NCBI GenBank assembly: GCA_001898625.1 | Contig: MKUP01000008.1 | Location: 62,001-126,000 of the forward strand | Direction of reading: 5' to 3' | Length of the DNA: 64,000 nt | DNA from: Burkholderiales bacterium 67-32 | Lineage (GTDB): Bacteria; Pseudomonadota; Gammaproteobacteria; Burkholderiales; Burkholderiaceae_B | In this document: piece after piece, positions 24,705 through 43,155 of the stretch | Layout of the letters: every line of letters starts with the position of its first letter | Position numbering within the stretch: position 1 is the first letter of the stretch | Program-made: the position numbers and the translations under genes | Notes under the pieces: model-generated | Seen by the model: only the letters and a program-made list of their open reading frames with translations | The model's database searches: none | Told to the model about the DNA's origin: nothing

Positions 24705-24725
24705 GGAACGCCTGGAGCCTGCCGC

Positions 24726-28249: not shown

Positions 28250-30145
28250 ATGGCCTTGAATCGTTCGACCTCGGAAGCGCCGGCAAGCCCCGGCCGGCGG
28301 ATCGCCGACTACGGCTTGATCGGCAACATGATCTCGGCTGCGCTGGTGGGCCGCGACGGCTCCATCGACTGGCTCTGCCTGCCGCGATTCGATTCGCCGG
28401 CATGTTTCGCGTCGCTTCTGGGAACCCCGGAAAACGGCCGCTGGCGCATCGCGCCGGTGGGAACGCCGGTGCGCAGCAGCCGGCGCTATCTTCCCGGAAC
28501 GGCGGTCATCGAGACGACGTTCGAGACCGAAGACGGTGCCGTGGAGCTGATCGACTTCATGCCGCTTGCCGGCGACGAGGAGCGCAGCGATATCGTTCGC
28601 ATCGTGCGCGGCAAGCGTGGGCGCGTGTCCGTGGAAATGGAACTGGTCCTGCGTTTCAACTACGGGCTGGTGGTGCCCTGGGTGCGGCGGCGCGACTACG
28701 GCCTGAGCGCGGTGGCCGGCCCCGACGCGGTCGAGCTGCATACGCAGGCGCCGCTGGAAGGGCGGAACATGAAGACCGTCTCGCGCTTCGACGTCGAAGC
28801 AGGGCAGAGCGTGCCGTTCACGCTGTCCTACCACCGGTCGCACCAGACGCCGCATTTCGTGCCCGACCGTGAAGAGGCGTTGAAATACACCGTGAGCTGG
28901 TGGCAGGAATGGTCGAAGCGCTGCGCCTTCGATCCGGCCCGCGAAGGGTGGCGGGACGCCGTGGTGCGTTCCCTCATCACGCTCAAACTGCTGACGTTCC
29001 GGCCCACCGGCGGGATCATCGCGGCACCGACCACGTCGCTGCCCGAGACACCCGGCGGTGGCAGGAACTGGGACTATCGCTACTGCTGGCTGCGCGACTC
29101 CGCGCTCACGCTCTATGCCCTGCTGAATGCGGGCTATCGCGAGGAGGCCGAAGCCTGGCGGCGCTGGCTGCTGCGCAGCATCGCCGGACAGCCGGACCAG
29201 TTGCGGATCATGTACGGGCTTGCCGGCGAGCGGTGGCTGCCCGAACACGAGATCCCCTGGCTGGCCGGATATGGCGGCAGTCGTCCCGTGCGCATCGGCA
29301 ATGGCGCGGCCGAGCAGGTGCAGCTCGATATCTTCGGCGAAGTGCTGGACACGCTGCATACGGCGCGGGAAGGCGTTCTTGCCGCGGCGCCCGACGCCTG
29401 GCAGTTGCAGAAGGTCATGCTTGAGCATCTGGTCGACATCTGGCGCAAGCCGGACCAGGGCATCTGGGAAATGCGGGGACCGGCGCGGCATTTCACGCAC
29501 TCGAAACTCATGTGCTGGGTGTCTTTCGATCGTGCCGTCAAGGCCGTGGAACGATACGGGCTGGACGGGCCCGTCGATCGATGGCGCCAGGAACGGGACG
29601 CGATCCACGCCGAGATCTGTGCCAAGGGCTTCGATCCGCGGATCGGCAGCTTCGTCCAGTCCTACGGTTCGACGGCGCTCGATGCGAGCCTGCTGCTGTT
29701 TTCCCAGGTCGGCTTTCTTCCCGACGATCATCCGCACATCCTGGGGACCGTGGAAGCGGTCGCACGGGATCTGCTGCAGGATGGATTCGTGCTCCGCTAT
29801 CACCCCGCGCGCACCGTCGATCCCTGCAAGCAGCCCGAAGGTACCTTTCTGGCCTGTTCGTTCTGGCTGGCCGATGCCTATGTCATGTCCAAGCGCATGG
29901 ACAAGGCCCAGGCGCTGTTCGAGCGGCTGCTGTCGGTGCGCAACGATCTCGGCCTACTGGCGGAGGAGTACGACCCGGCGTCGGGCCTGTTGCTCGGTAA
30001 TTTCCCTCAGGCTTTTTCGCACGTTGGTCTCGTCAATACCGCTTTCAATCTGGTGCGGGCCGCCGGGCCGGCTCGCCAACGAGCAGCGCGGACCGGGCCG
30101 GGTTCTTCCTCGCCGTCCCCCCACGCTCCCGCGCACCACTATTAG
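28250..30145 (+). CDS. Glycoside hydrolase family 15 protein (glucoamylase/trehalase-like)
   Basis: A 631-residue cytoplasmic protein with an N-terminal beta-sandwich (IADYGLIGNMISAALVGRDG, DWLCLPRFDSPACFASLLG) and a C-terminal (alpha/alpha)6 barrel. Barrel motifs are W274-DYRYCWLRDS, EQVQLDIFGEVLD, GIWEMRG and the late PEGTFLACSFWLADAY, where GH15 acid/base glutamates are found. Bacterial GH15 relatives include trehalases and glucan glucohydrolases; which one this is cannot be told. It has no signal peptide. It stands alone between two catabolic sets, with no trehalose or glycogen genes nearby. Confidence 0.88.
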   Translation: MALNRSTSEAPASPGRRIADYGLIGNMISAALVGRDGSIDWLCLPRFDSPACFASLLGTPENGRWRIAPVGTPVRSSRRYLPGTAVIETTFETEDGAVELIDFMPLAGDEERSDIVRIVRGKRGRVSVEMELVLRFNYGLVVPWVRRRDYGLSAVAGPDAVELHTQAPLEGRNMKTVSRFDVEAGQSVPFTLSYHRSHQTPHFVPDREEALKYTVSWWQEWSKRCAFDPAREGWRDAVVRSLITLKLLTFRPTGGIIAAPTTSLPETPGGGRNWDYRYCWLRDSALTLYALLNAGYREEAEAWRRWLLRSIAGQPDQLRIMYGLAGERWLPEHEIPWLAGYGGSRPVRIGNGAAEQVQLDIFGEVLDTLHTAREGVLAAAPDAWQLQKVMLEHLVDIWRKPDQGIWEMRGPARHFTHSKLMCWVSFDRAVKAVERYGLDGPVDRWRQERDAIHAEICAKGFDPRIGSFVQSYGSTALDASLLLFSQVGFLPDDHPHILGTVEAVARDLLQDGFVLRYHPARTVDPCKQPEGTFLACSFWLADAYVMSKRMDKAQALFERLLSVRNDLGLLAEEYDPASGLLLGNFPQAFSHVGLVNTAFNLVRAAGPARQRAARTGPGSSSPSPHAPAHHY

Positions 30146-30173
30146 TCTCCCGCATACAGGGAATGACCGCCTT

Positions 30174-30194
30174 CTATTGGACGCGGGCCAATAG
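30174..30194. promoter_or_regulatory. 21-bp inverted repeat upstream of the catabolic operon
   Basis: CTATTGG (30174-30180), 7 nt, CCAATAG (30188-30194): perfect 7-bp arms. It includes the LysR-type T-N11-A pattern (T30178, A30190). It lies ~77 nt before the first operon ATG, the expected place of an activator site. The LysR encoded at the operon's far end (41468) is the natural candidate; this is inference. Confidence 0.5.
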
Positions 30195-30271
30195 GAGCGC
30201 CTATCTTTCGTCTCCAACAGGCGGCGCATGCCGCCCCCACAAGAATCCACCGAAGTGGAGCAGGAGACGAC

Positions 30272-31072
30272 ATGAGCCGGAACCGGCGGCCGATACGCAG
30301 CGGCATGGGCCGCAGCACCCCCGAACGCATTTTCGTCCAGGGCCTGGACCTGGCCCGAGACATCATCGGTACCCTCAACTTCGGCGACATGGCGTACCTG
30401 GAACTGACCGGACGCCTGCCGGATTCGCGGCAGTCCCGGGTGTTCAACGCCATTCTCGTCACCCTGGTCGAACACGGCATGACGCCCATGGCCATCGTCG
30501 CGCGGCTGACCTACCTGGGGGCTCCGGAGTCCTTGCAGTCCGCGGTGGCCGCGGGGCTGTGCGGGATGGGAACCACTTTCGCGGGTACCGCGGAAGGCGC
30601 GGCGCGGATGCTGGAGTCCACCTGGGCCGCCACGCCGGAGGGTTCGCCGCGGGAACTGGCGCGCGACGTGGTCGCGGATTTCCGGAACCGCAAGCAGTCC
30701 ATTCCGGGGATCGGCCACAACCTGCACAAGCCCGTTGATCCGCGCGCGATCCGGCTGTTCGAGGTCGCGGCCGAAGAGGGCCATGCCGGACGCTATGTCG
30801 AGTTGATGCGCGCCATCGGCGAGGAAGCCGAAGCGGCGTATGGCAAGAGCCTGCCCGTCAATGCCACCGGCGCCATCGGCGCGCTGTGCTGCGAGCTTGG
30901 GATCTCCTGGCGCGCGGCGCGCGGGATCGCGGTCATGGGCCGGGCAGTGGGCTTGGTCGGCCATCTGGTCGAGGAGCAGACGCACCCGGTCGCCGCCGAG
31001 ATCTGGCTGCGCACCGAGGAAGAAGCTGGCGAACATGACACGCCGCCCGAGGGCGGACGACAAGGAGGGTGA
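30272..31072 (+). CDS. Citryl-CoA lyase-like protein, short citrate-synthase fold
   Basis: A 266-residue member of the citrate synthase superfamily, much shorter than citrate synthase (~370-430). H68 in LVEHGMTP and H149/H152 in IPGIGHNLHKPVDPRA align with the two active-site histidines. The C-terminal catalytic Asp (VDFYSG in synthases) is replaced by Ala/Thr in LPVNATGAIG (~198-199). Such short proteins are annotated as citryl-CoA lyases, which split citryl-CoA to acetyl-CoA and oxaloacetate. Here it may cleave an analogous 3-hydroxyacyl-CoA. The ribosome site AGGAGACGAC is strong. It is first in the operon; the next gene starts 1 nt after its stop. Confidence 0.82.
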   Translation: MSRNRRPIRSGMGRSTPERIFVQGLDLARDIIGTLNFGDMAYLELTGRLPDSRQSRVFNAILVTLVEHGMTPMAIVARLTYLGAPESLQSAVAAGLCGMGTTFAGTAEGAARMLESTWAATPEGSPRELARDVVADFRNRKQSIPGIGHNLHKPVDPRAIRLFEVAAEEGHAGRYVELMRAIGEEAEAAYGKSLPVNATGAIGALCCELGISWRAARGIAVMGRAVGLVGHLVEEQTHPVAAEIWLRTEEEAGEHDTPPEGGRQGG

Positions 31073-31073
31073 C

Positions 31074-32051
31074 ATGCGGCGACTATCGATGCAATGGCTG
31101 GCGGTTGCGGTGGCGGGTTTGGCCTGGTGGGGGCCGTCCACCGCGCATGCGGAGTGGCCCGACAAGCCCATCCGCTTCATCGTGCCTTATCCGGCGGGAG
31201 GCGGCACCGACATCGTGGCGCGCGCCGTCGGCAAGAAGATGGCGGAGAACCTGGGTCAGCCCGTCATCATCGAGAACCGGCCCGGGGCCAGCACCATCAT
31301 CGGGACCGAGGCGGTGGCCCGGGCCGAGGGGGACGGCTACACGATCGGCCTGGTGACGGATTCCCACGCGTTGAATCCGATCTTCTTCGGGCAGAAGCTG
31401 TCCTACGACTCGGTCAAGGATTTCGCGCCGGTCAGCCAACTGGTCTTCGTGCCTTTCATCCTGGTGGCCAATCCCAAGGCGCAGGTCTCCACCGTCCAGG
31501 AGTTGATCGCCGCCGCCAAGGCCCGGCCCGGGAAGATCACCTATGCCTCCATCGGGAACGGCACGCCGCACTATCTGGCCATGGAGTGGGTGAAGGCGCT
31601 GGCCGACATCGATCTGACCCATGTTCCCTACAAGGGGGTCGCTCCGGCCTTGGCCGATGTGGTGGGCGGGCAGGTGGACGTGATGTTCACCGGCATGTCC
31701 TCGGGCGTGCCGCACGTGCGTTCGGGCCGGCTCAAGGGGTTGGCCGTCTCGGGCAAGGAGCGGTCGGCGATCGCGCCGGAGATCCCTACGGTGGCTGAAT
31801 CGGGCCTGAAGGAATTCTCCTTCATGACCTGGTACGGGGTGGTGGCGCCGGCGTCCACGCCGACAGGGATCGTGGGGCGCCTGAGCAAAGAGATCCGCAA
31901 GGCGCTGGAGAGCCCGGAGGTCAAGGAACAGTTCGTGAAGCTGGGCGTGGAAGGGGCGCCATCCACGCCGGAGGAGTTCGGTGCCTTCCTGCAAAGGGAA
32001 TCGGCGCACTACCAGCACATCATCAAGTTGACCGGCGCAAAGGGCGAATAG
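31074..32051 (+). CDS. Bug/TctC-family periplasmic solute receptor
   Basis: A 325-residue receptor, signal peptide WLAVAVAGLAWWGPSTAHA, with the canonical loop VPYPAGGGTDIVAR, then QPVIIENRPGASTIIGTEAV and VPYKGVAPALADVVGGQVD. ATG 31074 follows AAGGAGGGTGAC that overlaps the end of the lyase gene. Its stop overlaps the GTG start of the acyl-CoA dehydrogenase by one base. It is the first of three receptors interleaved in this operon. Confidence 0.92.
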   Translation: MRRLSMQWLAVAVAGLAWWGPSTAHAEWPDKPIRFIVPYPAGGGTDIVARAVGKKMAENLGQPVIIENRPGASTIIGTEAVARAEGDGYTIGLVTDSHALNPIFFGQKLSYDSVKDFAPVSQLVFVPFILVANPKAQVSTVQELIAAAKARPGKITYASIGNGTPHYLAMEWVKALADIDLTHVPYKGVAPALADVVGGQVDVMFTGMSSGVPHVRSGRLKGLAVSGKERSAIAPEIPTVAESGLKEFSFMTWYGVVAPASTPTGIVGRLSKEIRKALESPEVKEQFVKLGVEGAPSTPEEFGAFLQRESAHYQHIIKLTGAKGE

Positions 32052-33199
32052 TGGAATTGACTCAGGAACAACGGCTGATCCGGGATACGGTCCATGCGCT
32101 GGCGAGCGAGCGGTTCGCGCCGGGAGCGGCGGCGGCCGACCGGCAGTATCGGCCTCCGCTCGACAACCTGAAGGTGCTGGCCGGCCACGGCTATACCGGC
32201 ATTTTCCTGCCCGAATGCTACGGCGGGACAGGGCTGGGGCTGCTGGAGACGGTGCTGGTGGTGGAGCAACTGGCGCGTTCCTGCGCCAACACGGCGATGC
32301 TGTATTCCTGCACCGACGGCGCGACGCCGCGCGCCATCCTGCACATCGGATCCGAACCGCTCAGGCAGCGCTATCTGCCTGCCTTCGCCAAGGCGGAGTG
32401 GTATGCGGCCTGGAGCATGTCGGAGGCGAATGCGGGCTCCGACGTCGGCAATGTCCAGACCCGTGCCGTCAGTGACGGCCAGCACTATGTGATCAACGGC
32501 AGCAAGCTCTGGTGTACCGCCGCCCAGGTGGCCGACGTGTTCCTGGTCCTGGTGCGGCTGACTGACGAACCCGGGATGAAGGGCGTGGGGGCGGTGCTGG
32601 TCGAGCGTGGCACGCCGGGATTCTCGGTGGGCAAGCATCTGGATCTGCTGGGCCTGCGCGGGACGGGCATGGCCGAACTGGTCTTCCAGGACTGCCGCGT
32701 GCCGGCCGAGAACCTGCTCCTGCCGGCGGGACGGATGAAGGACCTGCTGCAGGTGCTGGACGCCGATCGCATCACCGGCAACCCCCCCATCTGCCTGGGG
32801 TTGGCCCAGGCGGCGCTGGGCCATGCCGTCCAGCATTTGAAGGATCGTGCCCAGTTCGGCCGTCCGCTTGCGGAGAACCAGGGATTGCAGTGGAAGCTGG
32901 CCGACATGGCGATGGACATCGAGGCGGCGCGCGCGCTGGTGTACGGGGCCGCGCAGGCCATCGACCAGGGGCGGCAGTCGGTGGCGCAGGTTTCCATCGC
33001 CAAGACCTTTGCCAACGAGATGGCGGTGCGCGTGACCAACCAGGCCATGCAGCTTGCCGGCGCATATGGGCTGTCGGAGGAATATCCGTTCGAGCGCTAC
33101 TTCCGTGACGCGCGCGGCATGTCCATTGGCTACGGAACGACCGAGATCCATAGAAATTCCATCGCGCGGGAGCTGCTCAAGGGCAGCTACCTCGTCTGA
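32051..33199 (+). CDS. Acyl-CoA dehydrogenase with substituted catalytic-base position
   Basis: A 382-residue FAD enzyme of the acyl-CoA dehydrogenase superfamily. N-terminal, middle beta-barrel (WSMSEANAGSDVGN, FAD/substrate loop) and C-terminal domains (REAFG-like motif as RAQFGRPLAENQ) are all present. At the place of the catalytic Glu in the YEGT motif the sequence is IGYGTTEIHR, so Tyr361 replaces it. The alternative helix-G position (isovaleryl-CoA type, LxxER) has Asp in LDADRI. The enzyme may use another base, or catalyse a different reaction such as desulfination-type chemistry. GTG start, coupled to the Bug stop. Confidence 0.88.
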   Translation: MELTQEQRLIRDTVHALASERFAPGAAAADRQYRPPLDNLKVLAGHGYTGIFLPECYGGTGLGLLETVLVVEQLARSCANTAMLYSCTDGATPRAILHIGSEPLRQRYLPAFAKAEWYAAWSMSEANAGSDVGNVQTRAVSDGQHYVINGSKLWCTAAQVADVFLVLVRLTDEPGMKGVGAVLVERGTPGFSVGKHLDLLGLRGTGMAELVFQDCRVPAENLLLPAGRMKDLLQVLDADRITGNPPICLGLAQAALGHAVQHLKDRAQFGRPLAENQGLQWKLADMAMDIEAARALVYGAAQAIDQGRQSVAQVSIAKTFANEMAVRVTNQAMQLAGAYGLSEEYPFERYFRDARGMSIGYGTTEIHRNSIARELLKGSYLV

Positions 33200-33220
33200 C
33201 GCCTGACGCGCAGGAGGACC

Positions 33221-33922
33221 ATGATGTCAGAAGCAAAGACCACCATCGACGCCGGCGACGGGCGCGGTTTCACCGCCTATGCCAGTCGGCCCGGGAAGCC
33301 GAACGGCCACGCCGTGATCATCCTGCAGGAGATATTCGGCGTGACCGATGCGATACGCGGCGTCGCCGATCGCTACGCGGCCGAAGGCTATCTCGCGCTG
33401 GCGCCCGACCTCTATTGGCGCATCGAGCCCGGCATCGAGCTGAGCCATTCCAAGGCCGACATCGAGCGCGCGTTCCAGTATCTGGAGCGGTTCGACGAAG
33501 AGGCGGGCCTGGCCGACATCGGCAGGGTTGCCGCGCACATCCGCGCCATGCCGGGCTTCCGGGGCCGCGTGGCGGTGGTGGGGCTGTGCCTGGGAGGGAA
33601 ACTGGCATTCCGCTGCGCCGCCAGGCTGGAGGTCGATGCGGCGGCCGTGTTCTATGGCGTGGGGGTGGAGGATCATCTGGACGAGGCGGCCGCCTTGCGC
33701 TGTCCGGTGGTGCTGCACTACGGCGACCAGGACCGCTACGCGTCCGCCGAGGCGCAGGCCAGGATCGAGACTGCGCTGCCGCCCATGGCAGGCGGAGGCT
33801 TTCACCGCTATCCCGGGGTCGGCCACGGTTTCTATACCCGCGGCGAGCTGGAGGCGGCGGCGCTGGCCCATGAGCGGACCACGGCGTTCCTGCGGACCGC
33901 GTTGGGGGCAGGTAGCCGATGA
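33221..33922 (+). CDS. Dienelactone hydrolase family protein
   Basis: A 233-residue alpha/beta hydrolase of the DLH family. The triad is C123 (GLCLGG), D171 (YGDQDRY) and H202 (GHGFYTR), with E37 in LQEIFGV, which in classical DLH holds the Cys. Classical DLH opens dienelactone to maleylacetate in modified ortho-cleavage of (chloro)catechols. A strong AGGAGG lies before ATG 33221. Its end overlaps the CoA-transferase start (ATGA). An enolase-superfamily cycloisomerase is encoded downstream in the same operon, which would fit a lactone intermediate. Confidence 0.92.
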   Translation: MMSEAKTTIDAGDGRGFTAYASRPGKPNGHAVIILQEIFGVTDAIRGVADRYAAEGYLALAPDLYWRIEPGIELSHSKADIERAFQYLERFDEEAGLADIGRVAAHIRAMPGFRGRVAVVGLCLGGKLAFRCAARLEVDAAAVFYGVGVEDHLDEAAALRCPVVLHYGDQDRYASAEAQARIETALPPMAGGGFHRYPGVGHGFYTRGELEAAALAHERTTAFLRTALGAGSR

Positions 33923-35085
33923 AAGTCCTTCAAGGGATCCGGGTGCTCGACCTGGGGAATTTCATTACCGCGCCGCTGGCCGGCATGTCGCTGGCCGAAC
34001 TGGGAGCGGATGTCGTCAAGGTCGAGCGGCCGGGCGGCGGCGACCCGTTTCGCGCATTCAAGGGGGGGCTCTACAGTCCCCAGTTCCAGGCGCACAACAG
34101 GAACAAGCGCAGCCTGGCGCTGGACTACACCCGACCCGAGGGGCGAGCCGTACTGGACAAGCTGGTCGAGGATGCCGACGTGCTGCTCCTGAACATGCGT
34201 CCGGGGGTGGAGGAGCGGCTGGGCCTGGGCGCCGAGCGTCTGCGTCGGCTCAATCCCCGCCTTGTTCATTGCGCCATCACGGGCTTCGGCGCCAGCGGCC
34301 CCTATGCCGGCCGGCCGGCCTACGACAACGTGGGGCAGGCCGTCTCGGGATGGTTGTCCATGTTCCACCGCGGCGAGGACCCGCGGGTGGCCGGCCCGGC
34401 GGTATCCGATGCCGTGACGGGCATCTATGCCTGCCTCGGGATCCTGGGCGCCTTGGTGGAGCGGGCGTCGACCGGCCTGGGGCGCAAGGTCGAGGTCAAC
34501 ATGCTCGAGGCGATGATCGCCATGGCCTGCGAGCCGCTGGGTTCGATGCTGGCAACCGGCCAGCCGCCCAGCCTGTACGGACGGGCGGCCATGTCGCAGT
34601 CGTACATCCTGACCTGCCAGGATGAGCGCCGCATTGCCCTGCATCTTTCGTCGCCCGACAAGTTCTGGCGCGGCCTGGTCCAGGCGATCGACCGCCCGGA
34701 CCTGCTCGCGGCCTATCCGGCGCGCCACGACCGCGTGGAACGCTACGACGAGCTGGCGCGCACGCTGGCCGAGGTATTCGCAGAGCGGGAACGGGAGTAT
34801 TGGCTGCCCCGGCTGGAGGCCCATGACGTTCCGTTCACCCCGGAACGGACGTTGGATGAACTGGACGAGGATCCGCAGGTGCGTCACCTGGGCGTCTTCT
34901 ACACGCAGCAGCATCCGCGCCACGGCACGTTGCGCGCCGCGCATCGCGCGATCCGTTACGACGGCGACCACGACAGCAATTTCCTGCCTCCGCCCGACCT
35001 GGGCGAGCACACGGAAGAAGTCTTGCGGGAGGCGGGGTTTTCCGAAGCCGCCATGACCGAGCTCAGGCAGGCCCGAATCATCTAA
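33919..35085 (+). CDS. Family III CoA-transferase (CaiB/BaiF)
   Basis: A 388-residue CoA-transferase that moves CoA between carboxylic acids (formyl-CoA, carnitine and succinyl-CoA:dicarboxylate types). The catalytic Asp is D164 in PAVSDAVTGIYA. N-terminal GIRVLDLGNFITAPLAG and ADVVKVERPGGGDPFR bind CoA, and the GFGASGPYAGRPAYD loop is characteristic. Length fits. It overlaps the dienelactone hydrolase gene by 4 nt. It would activate the pathway acid using a CoA donor, complementing the ATP-dependent ligase encoded further down. Confidence 0.93.
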   Translation: MKVLQGIRVLDLGNFITAPLAGMSLAELGADVVKVERPGGGDPFRAFKGGLYSPQFQAHNRNKRSLALDYTRPEGRAVLDKLVEDADVLLLNMRPGVEERLGLGAERLRRLNPRLVHCAITGFGASGPYAGRPAYDNVGQAVSGWLSMFHRGEDPRVAGPAVSDAVTGIYACLGILGALVERASTGLGRKVEVNMLEAMIAMACEPLGSMLATGQPPSLYGRAAMSQSYILTCQDERRIALHLSSPDKFWRGLVQAIDRPDLLAAYPARHDRVERYDELARTLAEVFAEREREYWLPRLEAHDVPFTPERTLDELDEDPQVRHLGVFYTQQHPRHGTLRAAHRAIRYDGDHDSNFLPPPDLGEHTEEVLREAGFSEAAMTELRQARII

Positions 35086-35115
35086 CGCGGATCTTTCCGC
35101 ACGAAGGGGATGACG

Positions 35116-36090
35116 ATGAAGTTGGCACGCTTCACGGGAGCGCTGTGCGCGCTGGGCCTGGCGGTTGCCGCCGGCCAGGCGGGCGCGGCCGGATGGCCGG
35201 ATCGGCCGGTACGCATTGTCGTCTCGTCGGGGGCGGGCGGAACCGCCGACATCGTCGCCCGCCTGCTCGCGCAGAAACTGGAGGCGGCCTTGGGCCAGCC
35301 GTTCATCGTCGAGAACAAGCCGGGGGCGGGTGGACATGTGGGCGCGGCCCAGGTGGCCCGTTCGCCGGCGGACGGCTACGTCTGGCTGATGAGCGGTAGT
35401 CCGACACACTCCGTCGGGCCGCATCTGTACAAGAACCTTCCGTATGACCCGATGCGCGACGTCCCGCCCGCCGCCATGGTCGCCATCGCGCCGAACCTGC
35501 TGGTCGTCAATCGCGAGCTGCCGGTGCGATCGGTGGCGGAACTCGTCGCGCTGGCGCGCGAGAAGCCCGATGAGCTGACCTATTCGTCGGCCGGCAACGG
35601 TACGTCGGGACACCTGGCGGGGGCCTTGTTGCAGAGCATGGCCGGGGTTCGCTTCAAGCACGTGCCGTACAAGACCGGACCGGATGCGGTGACGAGTGTC
35701 ATCGCTGGCGATGTTTCCATGACCTTCTTTACCGTGCCCGCAGTGATGAAACAGGTGCAGGCGGGCCGGCTGCGCGCGCTGGCCGTGACGTCGAGCGCAC
35801 GGACGCCGCTTGCTCCCGATCTGCCCACGGTCGCCGAGGCAGGCTATCCGGGATTCGATGTGCTGGGCTGGTACGCCCTGTTCGCGCCCAAGGATACGCC
35901 CACGCAGATCGTCGACCGCTTGAGTGCGCAGGTCGAGCGCATCCTGGCCCAGGCCGACGTGCGTGAAAAACTCCAACAACTGGGCGCGGAAGCGCACTAC
36001 CTCGATGCCAAAGACCTGACCGCTTACGTCGCGGCCGAGTCACCGAAGTGGAAGACGCTGATCGAGGCGTCGGGTGCACGGGTGGACTGA
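35116..36090 (+). CDS. Bug/TctC-family periplasmic solute receptor
   Basis: A 324-residue receptor with signal peptide (ALCALGLAVAAGQAGA). The ligand loop is VSSGAGGTADIVAR, with Ser-Ser-Gly in place of the usual Pro-x-Pro, then QPFIVENKPGAGGHVGA and VPYKTGPDAVTSVIAGDVS. The start at 35116 is preferred to 35110 because AAGGGG abuts the earlier ATG. Its stop overlaps the ATG of the cycloisomerase gene by one base. Confidence 0.9.
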   Translation: MKLARFTGALCALGLAVAAGQAGAAGWPDRPVRIVVSSGAGGTADIVARLLAQKLEAALGQPFIVENKPGAGGHVGAAQVARSPADGYVWLMSGSPTHSVGPHLYKNLPYDPMRDVPPAAMVAIAPNLLVVNRELPVRSVAELVALAREKPDELTYSSAGNGTSGHLAGALLQSMAGVRFKHVPYKTGPDAVTSVIAGDVSMTFFTVPAVMKQVQAGRLRALAVTSSARTPLAPDLPTVAEAGYPGFDVLGWYALFAPKDTPTQIVDRLSAQVERILAQADVREKLQQLGAEAHYLDAKDLTAYVAAESPKWKTLIEASGARVD

Positions 36091-37202
36091 TGGATGAAGG
36101 CAGCCAGGCCGAGCGCATCGTGCGCTGGGACGTGTTCGTCCGCAGCCTTGCCTATGGACGCGAGGTCCGCTGGAGCGACATGACCGAGGCGGCCGCGCAG
36201 TTCGTGATCCTGCGCATCGAGACCGAGTCCGGCGCGGCAGGGGCGGCCGAGGTCGTCGTCAAGCCGACGTGGGTCGGCGCCACGGCAGCCAGTCTCGTCG
36301 CCACGCTGCGCGAGGTGTTCGAGCCCTTGGTCCGGCAAACGGGATTGTCGGGTCCGCAGCCATTGCGCGGCGTGCTCGATTCCATCCCGGGAAACACCGT
36401 CGCCAAGGCGTTGATCGACAACGCATGCTGGGACTGGGAAGCGTCCCGCCGGGGGCAGCCGTTGTGGCGCTTGTGGCAGGGGCGGTCCGAGGTCGAACTG
36501 TCCTGGGCCGTTACCCGGCAGGCGCCCGACGCCATGGCGCGCGAGGCCGCCGCGATGGTGCAAGCCCATGGCTTCCGGACCCTGAAGATCAAGGGAGGGC
36601 AGGGGCTGCATCTGGACCGGGCCAGCCTGGCGGCGGTACGCCGGGCACTGGGCGATGGCGCGCGCCTGTATGTGGATGCCAACGGTGCCTATCCGTTCGA
36701 AGAAGCCGCGGACTACGTGCGGGCCATGGCAGAGGAAGGCGTGGAGGTCGTGGAAGACCCCTCGCCTTTGTCTCCGGATGGCGCGTTCCAGGCCCTGCAG
36801 CGGGACGCGGGCCTGCCGCTGCTGGTCGATTTCGGGATGGCCTCGACGCGGGATGCCCGGCTTTTCCTGGAACGCGGCGCCAGCATCCTGAGCGCGAAAC
36901 CGGGGCGCTTCGGCTTTTCGGATGCGCTGGCGATGCGCGATCTTGCCACCCAGGCACGGGCCGGTACGGTAGCGGGCCTCATGGGCGAGAGCGCCATGGG
37001 CACATGGAGCGGCCTGCAGTTTGCCGCGACGCTGCCGGCGGGCTCGCTACCCGCCGAGTTGAGCTGGTTCCTGTCCATGCGAGAGCAGTACGCCGGGCAC
37101 GTGCCGGCGATCGTCGACGGCGTCGTGGCCCTGCCCGAGACACCATCCGTTGCGGAGCTCGTGGACTGGGAAGCCATGAAAGATTTCAAGGTGCCTTCAT
37201 GA
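36090..37202 (+). CDS. Enolase-superfamily enzyme (mandelate racemase / muconate-lactonizing type)
   Basis: A 370-residue enzyme with a capping domain (1-~120) and a beta-barrel. Catalytic parts are readable: K166-I-K168 (LKIKGG), metal ligands D196 (VDANGA), E222 (VEDPS) and D247 (LVDFG), and an opposite lysine K270 (SAKPGRFG). KxK plus the distant Lys is the muconate cycloisomerase / o-succinylbenzoate synthase / dipeptide epimerase arrangement, not the His-Asp of mandelate racemase. It could make or open a lactone, racemise, or dehydrate. ATG 36090 is coupled to Bug; the end overlaps MaoC (ATGA). Confidence 0.88.
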   Translation: MDEGSQAERIVRWDVFVRSLAYGREVRWSDMTEAAAQFVILRIETESGAAGAAEVVVKPTWVGATAASLVATLREVFEPLVRQTGLSGPQPLRGVLDSIPGNTVAKALIDNACWDWEASRRGQPLWRLWQGRSEVELSWAVTRQAPDAMAREAAAMVQAHGFRTLKIKGGQGLHLDRASLAAVRRALGDGARLYVDANGAYPFEEAADYVRAMAEEGVEVVEDPSPLSPDGAFQALQRDAGLPLLVDFGMASTRDARLFLERGASILSAKPGRFGFSDALAMRDLATQARAGTVAGLMGESAMGTWSGLQFAATLPAGSLPAELSWFLSMREQYAGHVPAIVDGVVALPETPSVAELVDWEAMKDFKVPS

Positions 37203-37681
37203 ACGATGTCCGGATGGGCTTGCACGCCATCGCGTATGACGAACTGGTCGTGGGCGAGCGCTACGAAGGAAACGCCCGCACGTTGACGCAGACCGATCTT
37301 TCCCTGGCCTGCATGTTGAGCGGAGACTGGCATCCCATTCACGCCGATGTCGAGTTCTGCCGGGCGGCAGGCATGCCGGGTCCGATGTTCCAAGGCCCCT
37401 ACGGCATCCTGCTGGCCATGGGCATGGCGACGCAGCTGCCCGCGTTCGCGGATCCGGTGGTCGGCGCGATCGGCCTGGCCGAGTGGCGGTACCGGCGGCC
37501 GTTACGGGTGGGGCACACGGTGCGCGTCCGGGCGACGATCAGCGGCAAGCGGGTGACTTCCGATGGCCTGCGGGCGGTGGTGGACAGGCGGTTCGAACTG
37601 CTCGGCCCGGACGGGGAGTTGTTTCAGGAAGGGCATGGAGGAACCATGCTGCGGCTCTCATCCAGGGGGGAACAATCATGA
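37199..37681 (+). CDS. MaoC-like (R)-hydratase / dehydratase
   Basis: A 160-residue hot-dog-fold protein. The hydratase-2 motif is present as LSGDWHPIHAD with D43 and H48 at the catalytic positions. The usual Asn of the DxNPxH motif is His45, a notable substitution. GMPGPMFQGPYGI continues the hot-dog helix. It would hydrate an enoyl-CoA or the reverse. Itaconyl-CoA and mesaconyl-CoA hydratases belong to the same family. It overlaps both neighbours by 4 nt, implying stoichiometric coupled translation with the cycloisomerase and ligase. Confidence 0.88.
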   Translation: MNDVRMGLHAIAYDELVVGERYEGNARTLTQTDLSLACMLSGDWHPIHADVEFCRAAGMPGPMFQGPYGILLAMGMATQLPAFADPVVGAIGLAEWRYRRPLRVGHTVRVRATISGKRVTSDGLRAVVDRRFELLGPDGELFQEGHGGTMLRLSSRGEQS

Positions 37682-39231
37682 TTCTCGGCGACATCGTCGA
37701 CCACAACGCCCGCTGTCTGCGCGACCATCCGGCCTTTCTTTTCGAAGGCCGAGCCATCACGCACGGGGAGTTCGGGCAAAGGGTGAGGCGGCTCGGCAAC
37801 GCATTGCTTGCCCAGGGCCTGGCGCGTGGCGACCGCATTGCGATCCTGGCCCAGAACTGTCCTGAGTACATGGAAATGTACTGTGTGGCGGGGATGTGCG
37901 GATTTATCGCGGTCGGGATGAACTACCGGCTGTCGGCGGCGGATCAGGCGGTCATCCTGCGTGATTGCGCTCCCGCCCTGCTGGTCTATGACCCGGAGTA
38001 CGAGGACCGGGTGCGGGAGCTGTGCACCGCCTTGCCTGCGCAGGCCCGGATCATGAAACTGGGCGGCGACGCGGGCGATTCGGGCTACGAGGCGGCCATC
38101 GCCCGCGCGGACGCCGCGCCGCCGCCGCTGCGCGCCCGGGACGACGACACGGCTTTCCTGATCTATACCAGCGGCACCACCGGTGCCGCCAAGGGGGTCA
38201 TGCTGGGCAACGCCGGGCAAGTGGAGCAGGCCCGCATGCTGGCGCTGTCGCATGGCGCGCAGCCCACGGACCGCATGCTCATCGTCATGCCCGCCTATCA
38301 CATAGGGGGCACCACCGAGTTGCTCAGCTACCTGATCTGCGGTGCGACGATCGTGCTGCACCGCCGGTTCGACGCACGCGAGATCCTGGACAGCATGGCG
38401 CGCCATCGAGTGACGGTCGCCCACTTCGCGCCGATCATGATCCAGGCCCTGCTGGACGAGCAGGAAAGGCAGGCCGTGGATCTGTCCAGCCTGAACACGG
38501 TCTGCTATGCCTCCGCGCCGATGTCGGTGGCGCTGTCCCGGCGGGCGCATCGCGCGCTTGGCCGGATCTTCATGCAGGTCTATGGGATGACCGAACACGG
38601 GCCCGGCAGCGCGCTCCTGAAACACCAGCACGAGCCGGAGGGAAACTCGGCGCAGGCCGCCCGCATGGCGTCGGCCGGCCAGCCGATACCCGGTGTGGAA
38701 ATCAGGATCGTCGACGAGCAGGGCCGGGAGCAGGAACAGGGAGATATCGGCGAAATCGCCATGCGCTCGGCCGCCATCATGCAAGGCTATTGGGGCAAGC
38801 CGGCGGAGACCGCGGCGGCGCTCGACGGCGGGTGGATGAAAACGGGCGATCTCGGCTACTTCGACGAGGACCACTACCTGTTCATCGTCGATCGCAAGAA
38901 GGACATGATCATTTCCGGCGGCGAGAACATCTATTCGCGGGAAGTGGAGGAGGCCTTGCTGCTTCATCCCGCGGTCCTGGAGGCGGCGGTGATCGGCGTG
39001 CCCGACGAGAAGTGGGGGGAGTCGGTGAAGGCTTTCGTCGCCCTGAAGGCGGGCGGGCAGGCCGACGAGCGGACCCTGATCGAACATTGCCGCCAGCGGC
39101 TCGCCAGCTACAAGAAGCCGCGCAGCATCGAATTCATGGCTGCGCTGCCGCGCCTGCCGAGCACGAACAAGATCGACAAGAAGGCATTGCGCGCGCCGTA
39201 CTGGGCAAACAAGGCCAGGCAGGTCGCCTGA
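37678..39231 (+). CDS. Acyl-CoA synthetase (AMP-forming, ANL superfamily)
   Basis: A 517-residue ligase that makes an acyl-AMP, then acyl-CoA. The P-loop motif is IYTSGTTGAAKGVM, the A-loop is QVYGMTEHGPGS, the hinge motif MKTGDLGYFDEDHYLFIVDR and the C-terminal catalytic lysine lies in STNKIDKKALR. It resembles the AliA/CaiC/benzoate- and fatty-acyl ligase group, so substrate size cannot be fixed. It gives the operon a second activation route beside the CoA-transferase. It begins in the MaoC stop (ATGA). Confidence 0.93.
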   Translation: MILGDIVDHNARCLRDHPAFLFEGRAITHGEFGQRVRRLGNALLAQGLARGDRIAILAQNCPEYMEMYCVAGMCGFIAVGMNYRLSAADQAVILRDCAPALLVYDPEYEDRVRELCTALPAQARIMKLGGDAGDSGYEAAIARADAAPPPLRARDDDTAFLIYTSGTTGAAKGVMLGNAGQVEQARMLALSHGAQPTDRMLIVMPAYHIGGTTELLSYLICGATIVLHRRFDAREILDSMARHRVTVAHFAPIMIQALLDEQERQAVDLSSLNTVCYASAPMSVALSRRAHRALGRIFMQVYGMTEHGPGSALLKHQHEPEGNSAQAARMASAGQPIPGVEIRIVDEQGREQEQGDIGEIAMRSAAIMQGYWGKPAETAAALDGGWMKTGDLGYFDEDHYLFIVDRKKDMIISGGENIYSREVEEALLLHPAVLEAAVIGVPDEKWGESVKAFVALKAGGQADERTLIEHCRQRLASYKKPRSIEFMAALPRLPSTNKIDKKALRAPYWANKARQVA

Positions 39232-39254
39232 GCGGACAGACCAAGGAGACGAAC

Positions 39255-40232
39255 ATGAACGTACGCAGGATTCTCGCGCGCGTTGCCGCGCTGGTAGGAT
39301 GCGCGGCGGCCGGAGCGGCGCATGGCGAGGCGTTTCCCGCCAGGATGGTGCGCATCGTCGTGCCTTTCACCGCCGGCGGCCTGGCGGATGTGGTGGCGCG
39401 GGGAGTCGCCCAGGAACTGACGACCCGCTGGTCGCAGCCGGTCATCGTCGAGAACAAGCCCGGCGCCAACACCATCATCGCCGCCGAACACGTGGCCCGG
39501 GCGGCACCGGATGGCTACACGCTGCTGATGGCCAACGATCCGACGCTCTCCTCCAACCAGTATCTGTATCGCAAGCTTTCCTACGATCCGGTCAAGGATT
39601 TCGTGCCGGTGGTCAATCTCGTGCAGACGCGGGAGATCTTGCTGGCGAGCAGGAAGTCCGGACTGGCCAGCGTGGAGGCGCTCGTGGCGCGCGCCAAGGC
39701 GCGTCCGGGAGAGGTGACCTATGGCTCGTATGGCGTGGGAAGCAAGGCGCAACTCGATGCCGAGACCTTCTCTTCGCTGGCGGGCATCCGGCTGAATCAC
39801 GTTCCCTACAAGGGCGTTGCCGACGTCATGGCCGCCCTCGTTGGCGGCCAGATCGACGTGGCGTGGGTAGGTGTGCCGCCAGCCATTCCCATGGTCGAGG
39901 GGGACAAGGTCAGGCTGCTGGCGGTCGCGGCGCCGAGGCGGATCACCGCTTTTCCCGCCGCGCCGACATTCGCGGAGCTGGGGTTTCCGAAGATGGTTTC
40001 GCAAGCCTGGTTCGGACTGGTCGCGCCCAGGGACACGCCGGACGGCATCGTAGGCAGGATTGCCGCCGACGTGTCGGCCGTCGTCTCGCAGCCGGCCTTC
40101 CTGGACAAGTACGTGACGGGCGTCGGGCTCGAGCCGTTGAATCAAGGACCCGAGGAGTTCGGGCGTTTCCTGGCCCGCGACAGGGCCGAGTACGAGACGA
40201 GCATCCGCAATGCCAAGGTGAAACTGGACTAG
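39255..40232 (+). CDS. Bug/TctC-family periplasmic solute receptor
   Basis: A 325-residue receptor with signal peptide (RVAALVGCAAAGAAHG). The ligand loop is VPFTAGGLADVVAR, followed by QPVIVENKPGANTIIAA and VPYKGVADVMAALVGGQID. The ribosome site is AAGGAGACGAAC. It is the third receptor of the operon. It is the closest by eye to the receptor at 31074 (shared IIxxExVARA and SYDSVKDF/SYDPVKDF segments), hinting at duplication within the cluster. Confidence 0.92.
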   Translation: MNVRRILARVAALVGCAAAGAAHGEAFPARMVRIVVPFTAGGLADVVARGVAQELTTRWSQPVIVENKPGANTIIAAEHVARAAPDGYTLLMANDPTLSSNQYLYRKLSYDPVKDFVPVVNLVQTREILLASRKSGLASVEALVARAKARPGEVTYGSYGVGSKAQLDAETFSSLAGIRLNHVPYKGVADVMAALVGGQIDVAWVGVPPAIPMVEGDKVRLLAVAAPRRITAFPAAPTFAELGFPKMVSQAWFGLVAPRDTPDGIVGRIAADVSAVVSQPAFLDKYVTGVGLEPLNQGPEEFGRFLARDRAEYETSIRNAKVKLD

Positions 40233-40245
40233 CTGGAGAAGACCG

Positions 40246-41418
40246 ATGGATTTCGAGCTGGAACCGGAACTGCGCATGCTGCGCGACGCCGTGCGCCGTT
40301 TCGTGGAAAGGGAATTGTTGCCGCTGGAGGGCCGCTACGCCAACGAGCATGACATCCCCGACGACGTCCGGCAGCGGCTGCAGGACAAGGCCAAGGACCT
40401 GGGCTTCTGGACCTTCGACCTGCCGGAGGAGGTGGGAGGGGGCGGGATCGGCGTGGTCGGCATGTGTGTCGTGTTCGAGGAACTGGCCCGGTGCAACGTG
40501 CCCTCGTTCCGGGCCCCCACCGTGCTGACGCCTTACCTGGGGCCGGTGTTGTTCCATGGCAGCCGGGAACAGAAGGAGGCGTACCTGCTGCCCGTGGCCC
40601 GAGGAGAAAAGCGAACCTGTTTCGCGCTGACCGAACCGGGAGCAGGGTCGGATCCCTCCGGCATGCGGACGACCGCGGCTGCCGACGGAGATCACTTCGT
40701 GATCAACGGAGCCAAGATCTTCATTACCGGCGCCGACAAGGCGGATTTCGCGCAGGTGTTCGCGCGGACCATCAAGGACGGGAAGGAACTGGGCATCAGT
40801 TGTTTCCTGGTCGACCGGGACACGCCGGGGATGCGGCTGGGCCAGAGCTTCGAGCTGATGTCGCCGGACCGGCCATGGGAACTGCTGTTCGACAACGTGA
40901 GGGTGCCGGCGGACCGGATGGTGGGTGCGGCGGGCCAGGGTTGGGACCTGGCGCGCGAGTTCCTCGACATGGGCCGTCTCATCCACGGCCCGAAAGCGCT
41001 GGGTCGCGCCCAGCGGGCCCTGGACATGGCGATCGCCTATGCCAACGAGCGCAGCACGTTCGGGCAGCCGCTGGCAAAGCGCCAGGCCATCCAGTGGATG
41101 ATCGCCGATTCCATGGTGGAACTCCATGCGGCCAGGTCCATGGTGCTGCACGCCGCGTGGAGGGCCGACCGCGGACTGGACTATCATCTCGAGGCGTCGG
41201 CGGTGAAGCTCTACGCGGACGAAATGTTGATACGCGTCGTCGACCGGGCCATCCAGATCCACGGCGGCTTGGGGTTGTCCCGCGAATTGCCGCTGGAGCT
41301 CATGTATCGAGATGCGCGCAGCCGCACCATTACCGAGGGTTCTTCCGAAATGCAGCGGATGATCATTGCATCGGGAGCGCTGTCCGGCCGGTACGGAACG
41401 AATCGCTTCGAGACCTGA
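40246..41418 (+). CDS. Acyl-CoA dehydrogenase
   Basis: A 390-residue FAD-dependent acyl-CoA dehydrogenase. The FAD/substrate motif FALTEPGAGSDPSG, the arginine motif RSTFGQPLAKRQ and the catalytic Glu in ITEGSSEMQRM are all intact, unlike the operon's first dehydrogenase. The C-terminal helix GGLGLSRELPLELMYRDA is typical. It would introduce the alpha,beta double bond. ETF genes are not in the window. It lies 13 nt after Bug and is the last enzyme gene before the LysR gene. Confidence 0.93.
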   Translation: MDFELEPELRMLRDAVRRFVERELLPLEGRYANEHDIPDDVRQRLQDKAKDLGFWTFDLPEEVGGGGIGVVGMCVVFEELARCNVPSFRAPTVLTPYLGPVLFHGSREQKEAYLLPVARGEKRTCFALTEPGAGSDPSGMRTTAAADGDHFVINGAKIFITGADKADFAQVFARTIKDGKELGISCFLVDRDTPGMRLGQSFELMSPDRPWELLFDNVRVPADRMVGAAGQGWDLAREFLDMGRLIHGPKALGRAQRALDMAIAYANERSTFGQPLAKRQAIQWMIADSMVELHAARSMVLHAAWRADRGLDYHLEASAVKLYADEMLIRVVDRAIQIHGGLGLSRELPLELMYRDARSRTITEGSSEMQRMIIASGALSGRYGTNRFET

Positions 41419-41467
41419 ATCGGCTGTGTTGCCGCCAGTGGCTGATCGCATTCCACGGAGGGCGGCA

Positions 41468-42418
41468 ATGAACATCGAGAGCATCGACCTGAATCTGTTG
41501 GTGGCTTTCGACGCGATGATGCAGGAGCGCAACGTTACCCGGGCCGGCCTGCGGGTAGGCCTGTCCCAGCCGTCGATGAGCCATGCCTTGACGCGCTTGC
41601 GGCACTTGTGCGCCGATCCGTTGTTCGTCCGCGTCAAGACCGGAATGGAGCCCACGCCGTTCGCGCAGCGCATCGCTCCCAGCGTGCGCGCGGGGTTGGC
41701 CATCATGCGCGCGGGACTGGAGGAGGCCGTGGCGTTCGACCCGGCGCGGTCCGAGCGGATTTTCCAGATCCTGTTGAGCGACATCGGCGAAGTGGTCTAC
41801 CTGCCACGCTTGATGCAGCATCTGAAGAAGGTGGCACCGAGTGTCGGGCTGCGCATACTGCAACTGCCGCGCGAGAGCTACCGTGAAGCGCTGGAGTCCG
41901 GGGATGCCGACCTCGCGGTGGGGTTCCTGCCCGGATTGAATGCGGGTTTTTACCAGCAACGCCTATTCAGCGATCGCCATGTCTGCCTGTTGAGGTCGGA
42001 CCACCCGCGCATCGGGGCATCGCTCAGCCTCCAGAGCTTCAGCGATGAATCGCACATCATGATCGAACCGGCGGGGACGCGGTATAGCCGCGCCTCCCTG
42101 CATTCCTCGACCACGACGCTGATCGAACAATACCTGGAGAAGAACGGGCTGCGCCGCCACATCGCCCTGCGCGTGCCGCATTTCACCATCGTGCCCGAGA
42201 TCCTGGCCGCCACCGAATTGCTGGTGGTCATCCCCGGTACCGTGGCGCGTCTCATGATGCCCTGGCGTCACGTCAAGATGCTGCCGCTGCCTTTCGAGGT
42301 GCCGGAGTTCGAGGTCAAGCAGTTCTGGCATGAACGCAGCCACCAGGATGCCGGCACCCGCTGGGTGCGCGGCGTTTTCGCGGACCTGTTCCTGGAGCAC
42401 GGCCCGCACCTGCCGTGA
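41468..42418 (+). CDS. LysR-type transcriptional regulator (NodD/NahR-like subgroup)
   Basis: A 316-residue regulator whose N terminus (NIESIDLNLLVAFDAMMQ) is typical of the NodD/NahR/LinR group of aromatic- or xenobiotic-responsive regulators. The HTH reads RNVTRAGLRVGLSQPSMSHA. The GGAGGG ribosome site sits 49 nt after the dehydrogenase stop, so it is probably co-transcribed with the operon. It lies between the enzyme block and the DUF1185-ABC transporter block and may regulate both through the dyads at 30174 and 42444. Confidence 0.92.
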   Translation: MNIESIDLNLLVAFDAMMQERNVTRAGLRVGLSQPSMSHALTRLRHLCADPLFVRVKTGMEPTPFAQRIAPSVRAGLAIMRAGLEEAVAFDPARSERIFQILLSDIGEVVYLPRLMQHLKKVAPSVGLRILQLPRESYREALESGDADLAVGFLPGLNAGFYQQRLFSDRHVCLLRSDHPRIGASLSLQSFSDESHIMIEPAGTRYSRASLHSSTTTLIEQYLEKNGLRRHIALRVPHFTIVPEILAATELLVVIPGTVARLMMPWRHVKMLPLPFEVPEFEVKQFWHERSHQDAGTRWVRGVFADLFLEHGPHLP

Positions 42419-42443
42419 TGGCCCGTTCGCATACGCGGAAAAG

Positions 42444-42459
42444 TGCAAGCTTCCTTGCA
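42444..42459. promoter_or_regulatory. 16-bp inverted repeat upstream of the DUF1185-ABC transporter block
   Basis: TGCAAG-CTTC-CTTGCA (42444-42459) has perfect 6-bp arms. It lies 87 nt before the DUF1185 ATG, in the only sizeable gap between the two halves of the cluster. It is a plausible operator and would mark a second promoter. The adjacent LysR is a candidate binder. Confidence 0.45.
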
Positions 42460-42546
42460 TCTATGCAGCGTGACGCCCCGCCGCTCCGGGCATAAGGTTC
42501 TGTCCAGCCTTCCCGGCCATGACCAGAACCTGAATTGGAGAGACAC

Positions 42547-43155
42547 ATGGGGCACCCCTCCGCTTTGCCGACCATCCGGCAACTGCACGTATTCGAACGA
42601 GAAATCCTGAGCGAGGCCGGGCAGGGCGCCAGCCGGCCTTCCCGCCACGTGGTGGCGGCGGCGGTTTTCAAGAACCCCTATGCCGGCCGAGGCGCGGCCT
42701 CGAAGGAAGACCTGGACCACCTGGTGGACATCTCGACCGAGATCGGCGCGCTGCTGACCGAGCGCGTACTGGCGCGCTTTGCCGGACAGGAGCGTCCGCG
42801 CGCCTATGGCAAGGCCATCATCGTCGGCATGAACGGCGAGTCCGAGCATGGCGCCGCCATGATCCACCCGCGGCTCGGGCTGTCGATGCGCAAGGGGCTG
42901 GGCGCGGGTCCGGCGCTGATACCCGGCAACGCCAAGGTCGCGTCCGCCGGGGCATCGATCGATGTGGTGTTCGGCGGCGCCGAGGATGCCTGGGACTATG
43001 ACGCCATGGACGGGATCGTGGTATCTGTTCCAGGCGCGCCCCTGCCCGACGAGCTGGCGCTTTTCGTCGGCTTCGGCACGGTCCGGATCAATGCCCGGGT
43101 CAGGGGAGCCAGCGCCGAACAGGTCGCCAAGCTCGTGGCCGACATCAGGAAGTAA
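42547..43155 (+). CDS. DUF1185 / 'amino acid synthesis family' protein
   Basis: A 202-residue cytoplasmic protein of the DUF1185 family. Segments RHVVAAAVFKNPYAGRG, YGKAIIVGMNGESEHGAAM and VFGGAEDAWDYDAMDG are distinctive. Function is not established, although the fold is known from a Bordetella homologue. The ATG at 42547 is chosen because GGAGA lies just upstream; the TTG at 42535 precedes that site. It stands at the head of a branched-chain-type ABC transporter operon, so a role in metabolising the imported compound is likely. Confidence 0.85.
   Translation: MGHPSALPTIRQLHVFEREILSEAGQGASRPSRHVVAAAVFKNPYAGRGAASKEDLDHLVDISTEIGALLTERVLARFAGQERPRAYGKAIIVGMNGESEHGAAMIHPRLGLSMRKGLGAGPALIPGNAKVASAGASIDVVFGGAEDAWDYDAMDGIVVSVPGAPLPDELALFVGFGTVRINARVRGASAEQVAKLVADIRK

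Follow-up and report, generated by a model that had tools for sequence, protein, structure and literature searches.

A predicted acyl-CoA operon with two putative acid-entry branches and a citrate-synthase-fold protein that lacks the citrate synthase catalytic pair

How would an acyl-CoA pathway be concluded when its operon encodes neither a thiolase nor a 3-hydroxyacyl-CoA dehydrogenase (HAD)? This question is raised by eleven co-directional genes on the plus strand (30272-41418) of a 64,000-nucleotide stretch of Burkholderiales bacterium 67-32 (assembly GCA_001898625.1, contig MKUP01000008.1, positions 62,001 to 126,000), hereafter the window, from a source genome of 6.66 Mb in 34 contigs. 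The Pfam families of the operon genes confirm that both enzymes are missing from the operon, as a preliminary description of this DNA had pointed out. That description was also right in recognizing an acyl-CoA operon of an unassigned pathway, but its linear route, in which MaoC hydration is followed by a lyase, is supported only in part. We tentatively prefer to read the locus as a LysR-linked catabolic operon by which carboxylic acids, most probably substituted or branched di-acids, would be imported and used as CoA esters, with two entry branches (A and B) that funnel into a common trunk. The rival readings weighed below overlap with this one and with each other, and our degrees of confidence in them need not sum to one.

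The gene order is citrate-synthase-fold protein (CCL), TctC1, Acd1, DLH, CaiB, TctC2, MLE, MaoC, AMP-forming ligase, TctC3, and Acd2, and the successive intergenic gaps are 1, -1, 21, -4, 24, -1, -4, -4, 20, and 13 nt, with a maximum of 24 nt when gene starts are picked by ribosome-binding sites and homology. The same-strand run of eleven genes described earlier is real. The families named at that time (two acid-activating enzymes, two acyl-CoA dehydrogenases (ACADs), a MaoC protein, an enolase-superfamily protein, a dienelactone hydrolase, and a short citrate-synthase-fold protein) were correctly assigned, although three TctC solute-binding proteins had been left out. In NG86-type comparisons, the ratio of nonsynonymous to synonymous substitution rates (dN/dS) of the operon genes is 0.042-0.182 against locus L010 (L numbers denote the loci compared), in which branch B is missing, 0.066-0.193 against L011, and 0.134-0.358 against L018, so that the compared parts are kept by purifying selection. 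Judged from its sequence, the run is a predicted operon that is maintained by selection and whose gene content is conserved across genera. No sigma-70-like match was found within 29800-42600, and of the terminator-like matches, 12 on the two strands together against a mean of 6.0 in shuffled sequence, three are on the plus strand, all inside genes. The upstream genes ald, TctC0, a binding protein, and GH15 were considered as operon members and rejected; L008 and L009 have no GH15 before CCL, and in the fetched stretches of L011, L012, and L018 all four are missing from that place.

The proposed ending of the pathway depends on the citrate-synthase-fold protein. It passes the NCBIfam model NF004868 'citryl-CoA lyase' (341.1 bits; curated cut-off, 193) and matches the solved citryl-CoA lyase PDB 6hxp (E 6.3e-39), which makes it a short citrate-synthase fold by sequence; its AlphaFold2 model is mostly helical, with a mean predicted local distance difference test score (pLDDT) of 76.5. 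In an ungapped alignment of the catalytic loop with 6hxp and citrate synthase 1iom, the catalytic Asp is replaced by Thr199. Phe103 takes the place of the HGG-motif His and, compared with 6hxp, Asn150 that of the Arg after GxGH. By motif, we take the Thr199 and Phe103 sites to be those of Asp375 and His274 in pig citrate synthase. The Asp site is occupied by Thr in 55, Ser in 8, Asn in 6, Ala in 4, and Asp in 16 of 89 homologue rows, and the active-site His is kept in 15 of the 16 Asp rows and in none of the 73 non-Asp rows. These rows represent 87 distinct loci (L031/L082 and L033/L081 are duplicated), 71 of them without Asp; left out were L001-L007 (short own-genome copies of refetched loci, or weak matches), L028 (truncated), L055 (whose contig, by length and gene hits, is that of L013), L070-L080 (MLE loci), and L083, which is the window. 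The His of EHG, the His of GxGH, the Arg of DPR, and the Arg of GR, all of which presumably have active-site roles, are present in the window protein, whose kept residues are His68, His149, Arg158, and Arg224, and in 73/73 non-Asp rows. In citrate synthase, acetyl-CoA forms hydrogen bonds with His274 and Asp375, according to PMC8455617.

The alpha-subunit of ATP-citrate lyase also has Phe at the His site but keeps the Asp, and loss of the Asp is therefore the stronger and more telling point. Since proteins with and without the Asp both occur beside CaiB, context alone cannot separate the two types. The context of the window protein still allows it to be a lyase, but the textbook citrate synthase mechanism is hardly the one that it would use. 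More generally, we suggest, with somewhat less confidence than we place in the operon reading, that an extensive citrate synthase superfamily branch annotated as 'citryl-CoA lyase' runs a non-citrate-synthase reaction, and that in this operon it joins two interchangeable acid-entry branches with TctC proteins of their own. This public label covers many proteins without the citrate synthase catalytic pair, and their chemistry is directly testable. The source genome also holds three paralogues of the protein on contigs C12, C25, and C28 (L043, L049, L050): one of 52% identity beside a ligase gene and one of 39% beside CaiB, both of the Thr type, and a third of 33%, also beside CaiB, in which the catalytic Asp and His are kept.

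The branches were defined by a tblastn comparison of 17 operons, that of the window among them, with both CCL and Acd1 in a gene run unbroken by a contig end. Excluded were L015, L025, and L028 (no Acd1) as well as L021 and L022 (contig ends), and L013 has a short neighborhood because its contig measures 9.9 kb. The trunk consists of the citrate-synthase-fold protein, Acd1, and usually DLH; branch A consists of TctC1-CaiB-Acd2, and branch B of TctC2-MLE plus MaoC-ligase-TctC3. Branch A is complete in 14 of the 17 operons and branch B in 10. Four operons have branch A without a working branch B: all of B is gone from L010, L013, and L023, and L020 has a 44-residue MaoC piece (45% identical, 46 bits) between DLH and TctC1, just after DLH, a remnant that shows loss of branch B with retention of the trunk. 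In the genomes of these four, neither a MaoC match (E<=1e-15) nor a ligase match (E<=1e-120) was found, and those of L013, L020, and L023 gave no MLE match at E<=1e-30; these three are metagenome drafts, which makes absences there weaker. In L010, a close relative, MLE occurs elsewhere in the genome (46%) and Acd2 lies approximately 90 bases after CaiB. L019 carries branch B alone, with branch A wholly missing from the locus, and a genome-wide search gave no Acd2 match at E<=1e-80 (CaiB was looked for at the locus). In L027, branch B lacks MLE, and its tctC2 carries a frameshift that may stem from a sequencing error. Operons with A only, B only, or both constitute a natural presence/absence experiment that could reveal which substrates orphan TctC proteins have.

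These patterns bear directly on the linear pathway, in which activation and an ACAD step would be followed by MaoC hydration to a tertiary alcohol and by a citrate-synthase-type lyase. The gene families do fit such a sequence, and itaconate and methylsuccinate are degraded by the same established logic (PMC12290011), which has also been proposed for naphthalene under anaerobic conditions (PMC11659651). However, at the above cut-offs, four relatives that keep the trunk have no working MaoC or ligase orthologue in their genomes, apart from the MaoC remnant of L020, so MaoC is not obligatory before the citrate-synthase-fold protein. With the catalytic Asp and His missing as well, we consider the linear pathway distinctly unlikely.

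In the two-branch reading that we prefer, an acid bound by TctC1 would receive CoA from CaiB and would be converted to an enoyl-CoA by Acd2 in branch A. In branch B, related acids would be bound by TctC2 and TctC3, the free acid would have its configuration (or ring state) altered by MLE before activation by the ligase, and MaoC would add or remove water. Both branches would join the trunk, in which Acd1 would perform a second, Asp-type oxidation and DLH would hydrolyze a lactone or ester intermediate. Finally, the citrate-synthase-fold protein would most likely split a CoA ester with an alpha-hydroxy-carboxylate end, held by His68, His149, Arg158, and Arg224, without the His/Asp pair of citrate synthase.

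Among core-locus rows (>=38% identity, >60% of length, window included), the Cys/Asp/His of DLH are conserved in 16/16 rows, the Asp/His motif of MaoC in 13/13, and the Asp of CaiB in 17/17, while the MLE-subgroup residues (KxK, the D/E/D metal ligands, and the second Lys) are present in 12/12; we take these to be the catalytic residues of the four families. Acd2 has the catalytic Glu364 in 7/7 rows that reach the site, and 7 further rows stop short of it. In Acd1, Tyr361 stands at the place of the catalytic Glu (reference 5ol2 chain C) in 19/19 rows, the reference excluded, and Asp239, presumably at the position of the isovaleryl-CoA dehydrogenase base, is kept in 19/19. The best solved match of CaiB is succinate--hydroxymethylglutarate CoA-transferase (E 3e-59), which supports a di-acid substrate.

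The preserved residues of MLE and DLH can also be read as an aromatic or muconate-derived lactone route, in which MLE lactonizes and DLH opens, a pairing that the preliminary description had suggested. The best solved match of DLH is indeed a dienelactone hydrolase (E 4.5e-35), a distant citrate-synthase-fold gene (L066) is accompanied by an intradiol dioxygenase and LeuCD, and an MLE paralogue in the source genome lies near a FAD_binding_3 gene. The two genes are nevertheless found apart, DLH without MLE in L010, L013, L020, L023, and L027 and MLE without DLH in L014, L017, and L026. The operon has no ring-cleavage enzyme, and MLE fails the muconate cycloisomerase model TIGR02534 (mucon_cyclo; 104.5 bits against a cut-off of 334.95). 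We accordingly give this route very little credence. As clues to the substrate, MLE paralogues were rejected as not decisive, their contexts ranging from the FAD_binding_3 gene to HMGL-like, ligase, and CaiB genes; at L077:7818-16711, for example, an MLE paralogue adjoins HMGL-like, PEP_mutase-family, ligase, CaiB, two ECH, and NMO genes.

Table 1. Features of the predicted operon and its flanks (window coordinates)
Feature	Position	Strand	Remarks
Perfect 7+7 palindrome CTATTGG-N7-CCAATAG	30174..30194		upstream of first gene; candidate LysR operator
CCL, citrate-synthase-fold protein	30272..31072	+	266 aa; NF004868 'citryl-CoA lyase'; trunk; Thr199/Phe103 replace Asp/His
TctC1 solute-binding protein	31074..32051	+	branch A
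Acd1 acyl-CoA dehydrogenase	32051..33199	+	trunk; Tyr361 replaces Glu, Asp239 conserved
DLH, dienelactone-hydrolase family	33221..33922	+	trunk; Cys123/Asp171/His202; missing at L014, L017, L026
CaiB family III CoA-transferase	33919..35085	+	branch A; Asp164
TctC2 solute-binding protein	35110..36090	+	branch B; adjoins MLE in 12/12 MLE-bearing operons
MLE enolase-superfamily protein	36090..37202	+	branch B; K166/K168, D196/E222/D247, K270
MaoC-type hydratase	37199..37681	+	branch B; SGDWHPIH motif
AMP-forming acyl-CoA ligase	37678..39231	+	branch B
TctC3 solute-binding protein	39252..40232	+	branch B
Acd2 acyl-CoA dehydrogenase	40246..41418	+	branch A; Glu364 kept
LysR regulator	41468..42418	+	starts 49 nt after operon

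Further context for the citrate-synthase-fold family was obtained from 14 annotated plasmid regions, hand-picked for diversity among the matches listed (six from 40 of 105 and eight from 60 of 120), with incomplete gene tables. A CoA-transferase belongs to the same-strand cluster in eight of them (L056, L058, L059, L061, L062, L063, L065, and L066), is encoded on the opposite strand in L068 and L069, is of the two-subunit 3-oxoacid type in L060, and is not listed in L057, L064, and L067. The tables of 8/14 regions include an ACAD, and those of 9/14 a hydratase, be it MaoC or a dehydratase, ECH, or LeuCD; a thiolase adjoins the gene in L069, whose protein alone among the 14 has the catalytic Asp. 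The family thus often occurs together with CoA-transferases, ACADs, and hydratases, which is the logic named in the preliminary description and which supports a lyase by context. Two Sulfitobacter-type clusters even contain CCL, CoA-transferase, ACAD, and MaoC or dehydratase genes. LeuCD and CaiB accompany the gene in L066 (Burkholderia glumae plasmid) and L056 (Cupriavidus necator pBB2), and L066, with an intradiol dioxygenase and a hydroxylase in addition, looks like an unassigned aromatic route.

It is possible, though we think it rather unlikely, that the citrate-synthase-fold protein is not a C-C lyase at all and has another acyl-CoA function, such as hydration or thioester hydrolysis, that uses the kept His and Arg residues, with cleavage occurring elsewhere. 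In line with this idea, none of the 73 non-Asp rows keeps either residue that contacts acetyl-CoA, the branch-A-only operons have no full hydratase gene, and a Limimaricola cluster has a CoA ester lyase, an ACAD, MmgE/PrpD, and a CoA-transferase but no annotated MaoC, ECH, or LeuCD. However, the MmgE/PrpD gene of that cluster might supply the hydratase itself. Moreover, several plasmid clusters pair the citrate-synthase-fold gene with MaoC or LeuCD and have no other lyase in their incomplete tables, and the same is true of L056, provided that its RraA gene is no aldolase.

Several observations also weigh against the two-branch funnel ending in cleavage. First, the citrate-synthase-fold protein is without the Asp and His that contact acetyl-CoA, which leaves the earlier claim that the pathway ends in a lyase unsupported and a citrate synthase mechanism improbable. 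Second, one Sulfitobacter-type cluster also carries a 3-hydroxy-3-methylglutaryl-CoA (HMG-CoA) lyase gene, and in the Limimaricola cluster the CoA ester lyase lies next to the citrate-synthase-fold gene. The HMG-CoA lyase gene, the MmgE/PrpD gene, and the MaoC remnant of L020 pull both ways on the relative probabilities. Third, the branch-A-only operons hold no full hydratase gene as a source of the hydroxyl group, although general hydratases elsewhere, for which no search was made, could stand in. Fourth, an NCBIfam search of ten operon proteins (all except TctC2) found two that pass a model, the citrate-synthase-fold protein (NF004868) and the ligase, and the latter passes NF004837 'long-chain-fatty-acid--CoA ligase' (499 against 476 bits; best 25 of 107 matches), a subfamily that speaks for a fatty acid and against a di-acid in branch B. 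Acd1 is matched best by the acryloyl-CoA reductase model and next by that of 3-sulfinopropanoyl-CoA desulfinase, with scores far under both cut-offs (301 against 600 for the desulfinase); with the desulfinase as next-best match, even oxidation by Acd1 is unproven. Finally, L014 and L017 break the pattern, as their loci hold TctC1, TctC2, MLE, the ligase, and an opposite-strand CaiB but are devoid of DLH, MaoC, and any Acd2 orthologue, and the module evidence as a whole comes from few lineages and draft genomes.

The operon could alternatively oxidize an acid part-way and leave completion to chromosomal beta-oxidation (hydratase, HAD, and thiolase). Thiolase_N reaches its cut-off at six places elsewhere in the genome, and these thiolases could also serve here; 3HCDH_N does so at five places, two of them strong, of which one lies on the same contig approximately 8.3 kb past the window. 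Against this, a citrate-synthase-fold gene under purifying selection (dN/dS 0.14-0.19) would have no place in such a scheme, and we regard part-way oxidation as an improbable account. The presence of this gene in every operon counted is no evidence, since the loci were found through it.

With respect to distribution, a one-genome-per-species scan, which reached close relatives only, identified relatives of the citrate-synthase-fold protein at 21 loci; the nearest, of 94% identity, belong to Pigmentiphaga and an Alcaligenaceae bacterium. Of 399 Burkholderiales genomes, 25, the source genome included, have a homologue at E<=1e-60. In regions of up to 20 kb fetched from the other 24, some of them ended by contig ends, an Acd1 orthologue occurs at the locus in one (L055, 63%); at the other 23 loci, the best ACAD matches are of 28-31% where Acd1 is the closer query or 31-47% where Acd2 is. 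NF004868 is matched at E<=1e-30 in 36 of 398 Pseudomonadota genomes, 17 of them above its cut-off, and no plasmid copy of Acd1 was found at E<=1e-100. With one Acd1 orthologue at 24 such places, the full operon is rare and patchy and the citrate-synthase-fold family broad.

The preliminary description had let the operon begin at 30174, which is not a gene start but the first base of the perfect palindrome. The pattern CTATTGG-N7-CCAATAG, fixed only after it had been seen, matches once in the window and in none of 100 shuffles. Its left half, TCTATTGGAC, is conserved in 7/7 aligned upstream regions; L011, L012, and L018 have a degenerate right half. The palindrome is plausibly the operator of the LysR regulator. 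A LysR gene of the same family lies downstream of the operons in L010, L023, and L027, and upstream and divergent in L016, L019, L020, L021, and L024.

The TctC proteins of the operon fall into separate clades in a quick tree of 57 rows (TctC1, 17; TctC2, 14; TctC3, 12), with Shimodaira-Hasegawa-like approximate likelihood ratio test (SH-aLRT) support, used in place of bootstrap, of 96, 98, and 99; the remaining rows, including those of L014 and L017 labelled TctC3 by BLAST, fall outside the three clades. TctC1 and TctC2 have their best solved matches among Bug-type and terephthalate-binding proteins and in the uncharacterized 5oei. Five TctC solute-binding proteins are encoded within approximately 20 kb (20937-40232), and the scanned subset of window genes contains no TctA or TctB family. 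Beyond the operon, the plus strand at 42535-48077 carries genes for an AA_synth (PF06684) protein, a Peripla_BP_6 protein, and a branched-chain-type ABC transporter, followed by a LysR gene at 48177; AA_synth and binding protein genes come after the operon in L010 too. On the other side, past serS and a tRNA-Ser, the stretch 19053-24609 encodes a UbiD-type decarboxylase (minus strand) and then TctC, choloylglycine-hydrolase-type (CBAH), and LysR genes, and is lower in G+C (0.605 at 22-24 kb).

Among the matches listed from the open-licence literature (20 of 460 and 12 of 23 in the two longest result sets cut short), judged by title and beginning of abstract, we found no description of this gene set, and within that scope the earlier remark that no pathway with this exact set is described still applies. 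A search for a tricarballylate or citryl-CoA route gave no match. For the residues of the citrate-synthase-fold family, nothing useful was found beyond citrate synthase papers (PMC4524684, PMC8455617). The text of a dicarboxylate study by random barcode transposon-site sequencing (RB-TnSeq; PMC12543098) has no passage on citryl, TctC, or CaiB, and PMC9875883 concerns branched short-chain dicarboxylates.

By sequence, the window protein shares the short citrate-synthase fold of citryl-CoA lyase 6hxp and the citrate synthase domain of ATP-citrate lyase, but it differs from them at Thr199, Phe103, and Asn150, except that the ATP-citrate lyase alpha-subunit has Phe at the second of these sites too. 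The lactone enzymes of the chlorocatechol/muconate route are MLE and dienelactone hydrolase, and the operon encodes the same superfamilies with their catalytic residues kept; unlike that route, it includes no ring-cleavage enzyme, and its DLH and MLE genes are each inherited without the other in some relatives. (S)-citramalyl-CoA lyase has a CitE-type fold, and no CitE-type lyase or MmgE/PrpD Pfam family is present among the operon genes. The thn pathway of anaerobic naphthalene degradation, as presented in PMC11659651, is anaerobic and employs a family I CoA-transferase in place of the family III enzyme encoded here, with no shared citrate-synthase-fold gene shown. A further close parallel is the itaconate/methylsuccinate cluster (ict, ich, and ccl with mcd and mmgE; PMC12290011), which likewise combines an acid CoA-transferase, an ACAD, a hydratase, and a presumed lyase. 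The likeness is one of gene families: that cluster uses (S)-citramalyl-CoA lyase where a citrate-synthase-fold protein without the Asp/His pair stands here, and the two ACADs, DLH, the ligase, and three TctC proteins are additional in this operon. The two Sulfitobacter-type clusters resemble the same set with the lyase exchanged. Finally, PMC12290011 describes an isomerase that admits both stereoisomers to the itaconate/methylsuccinate pathway, and MLE could play that part in the operon described here.

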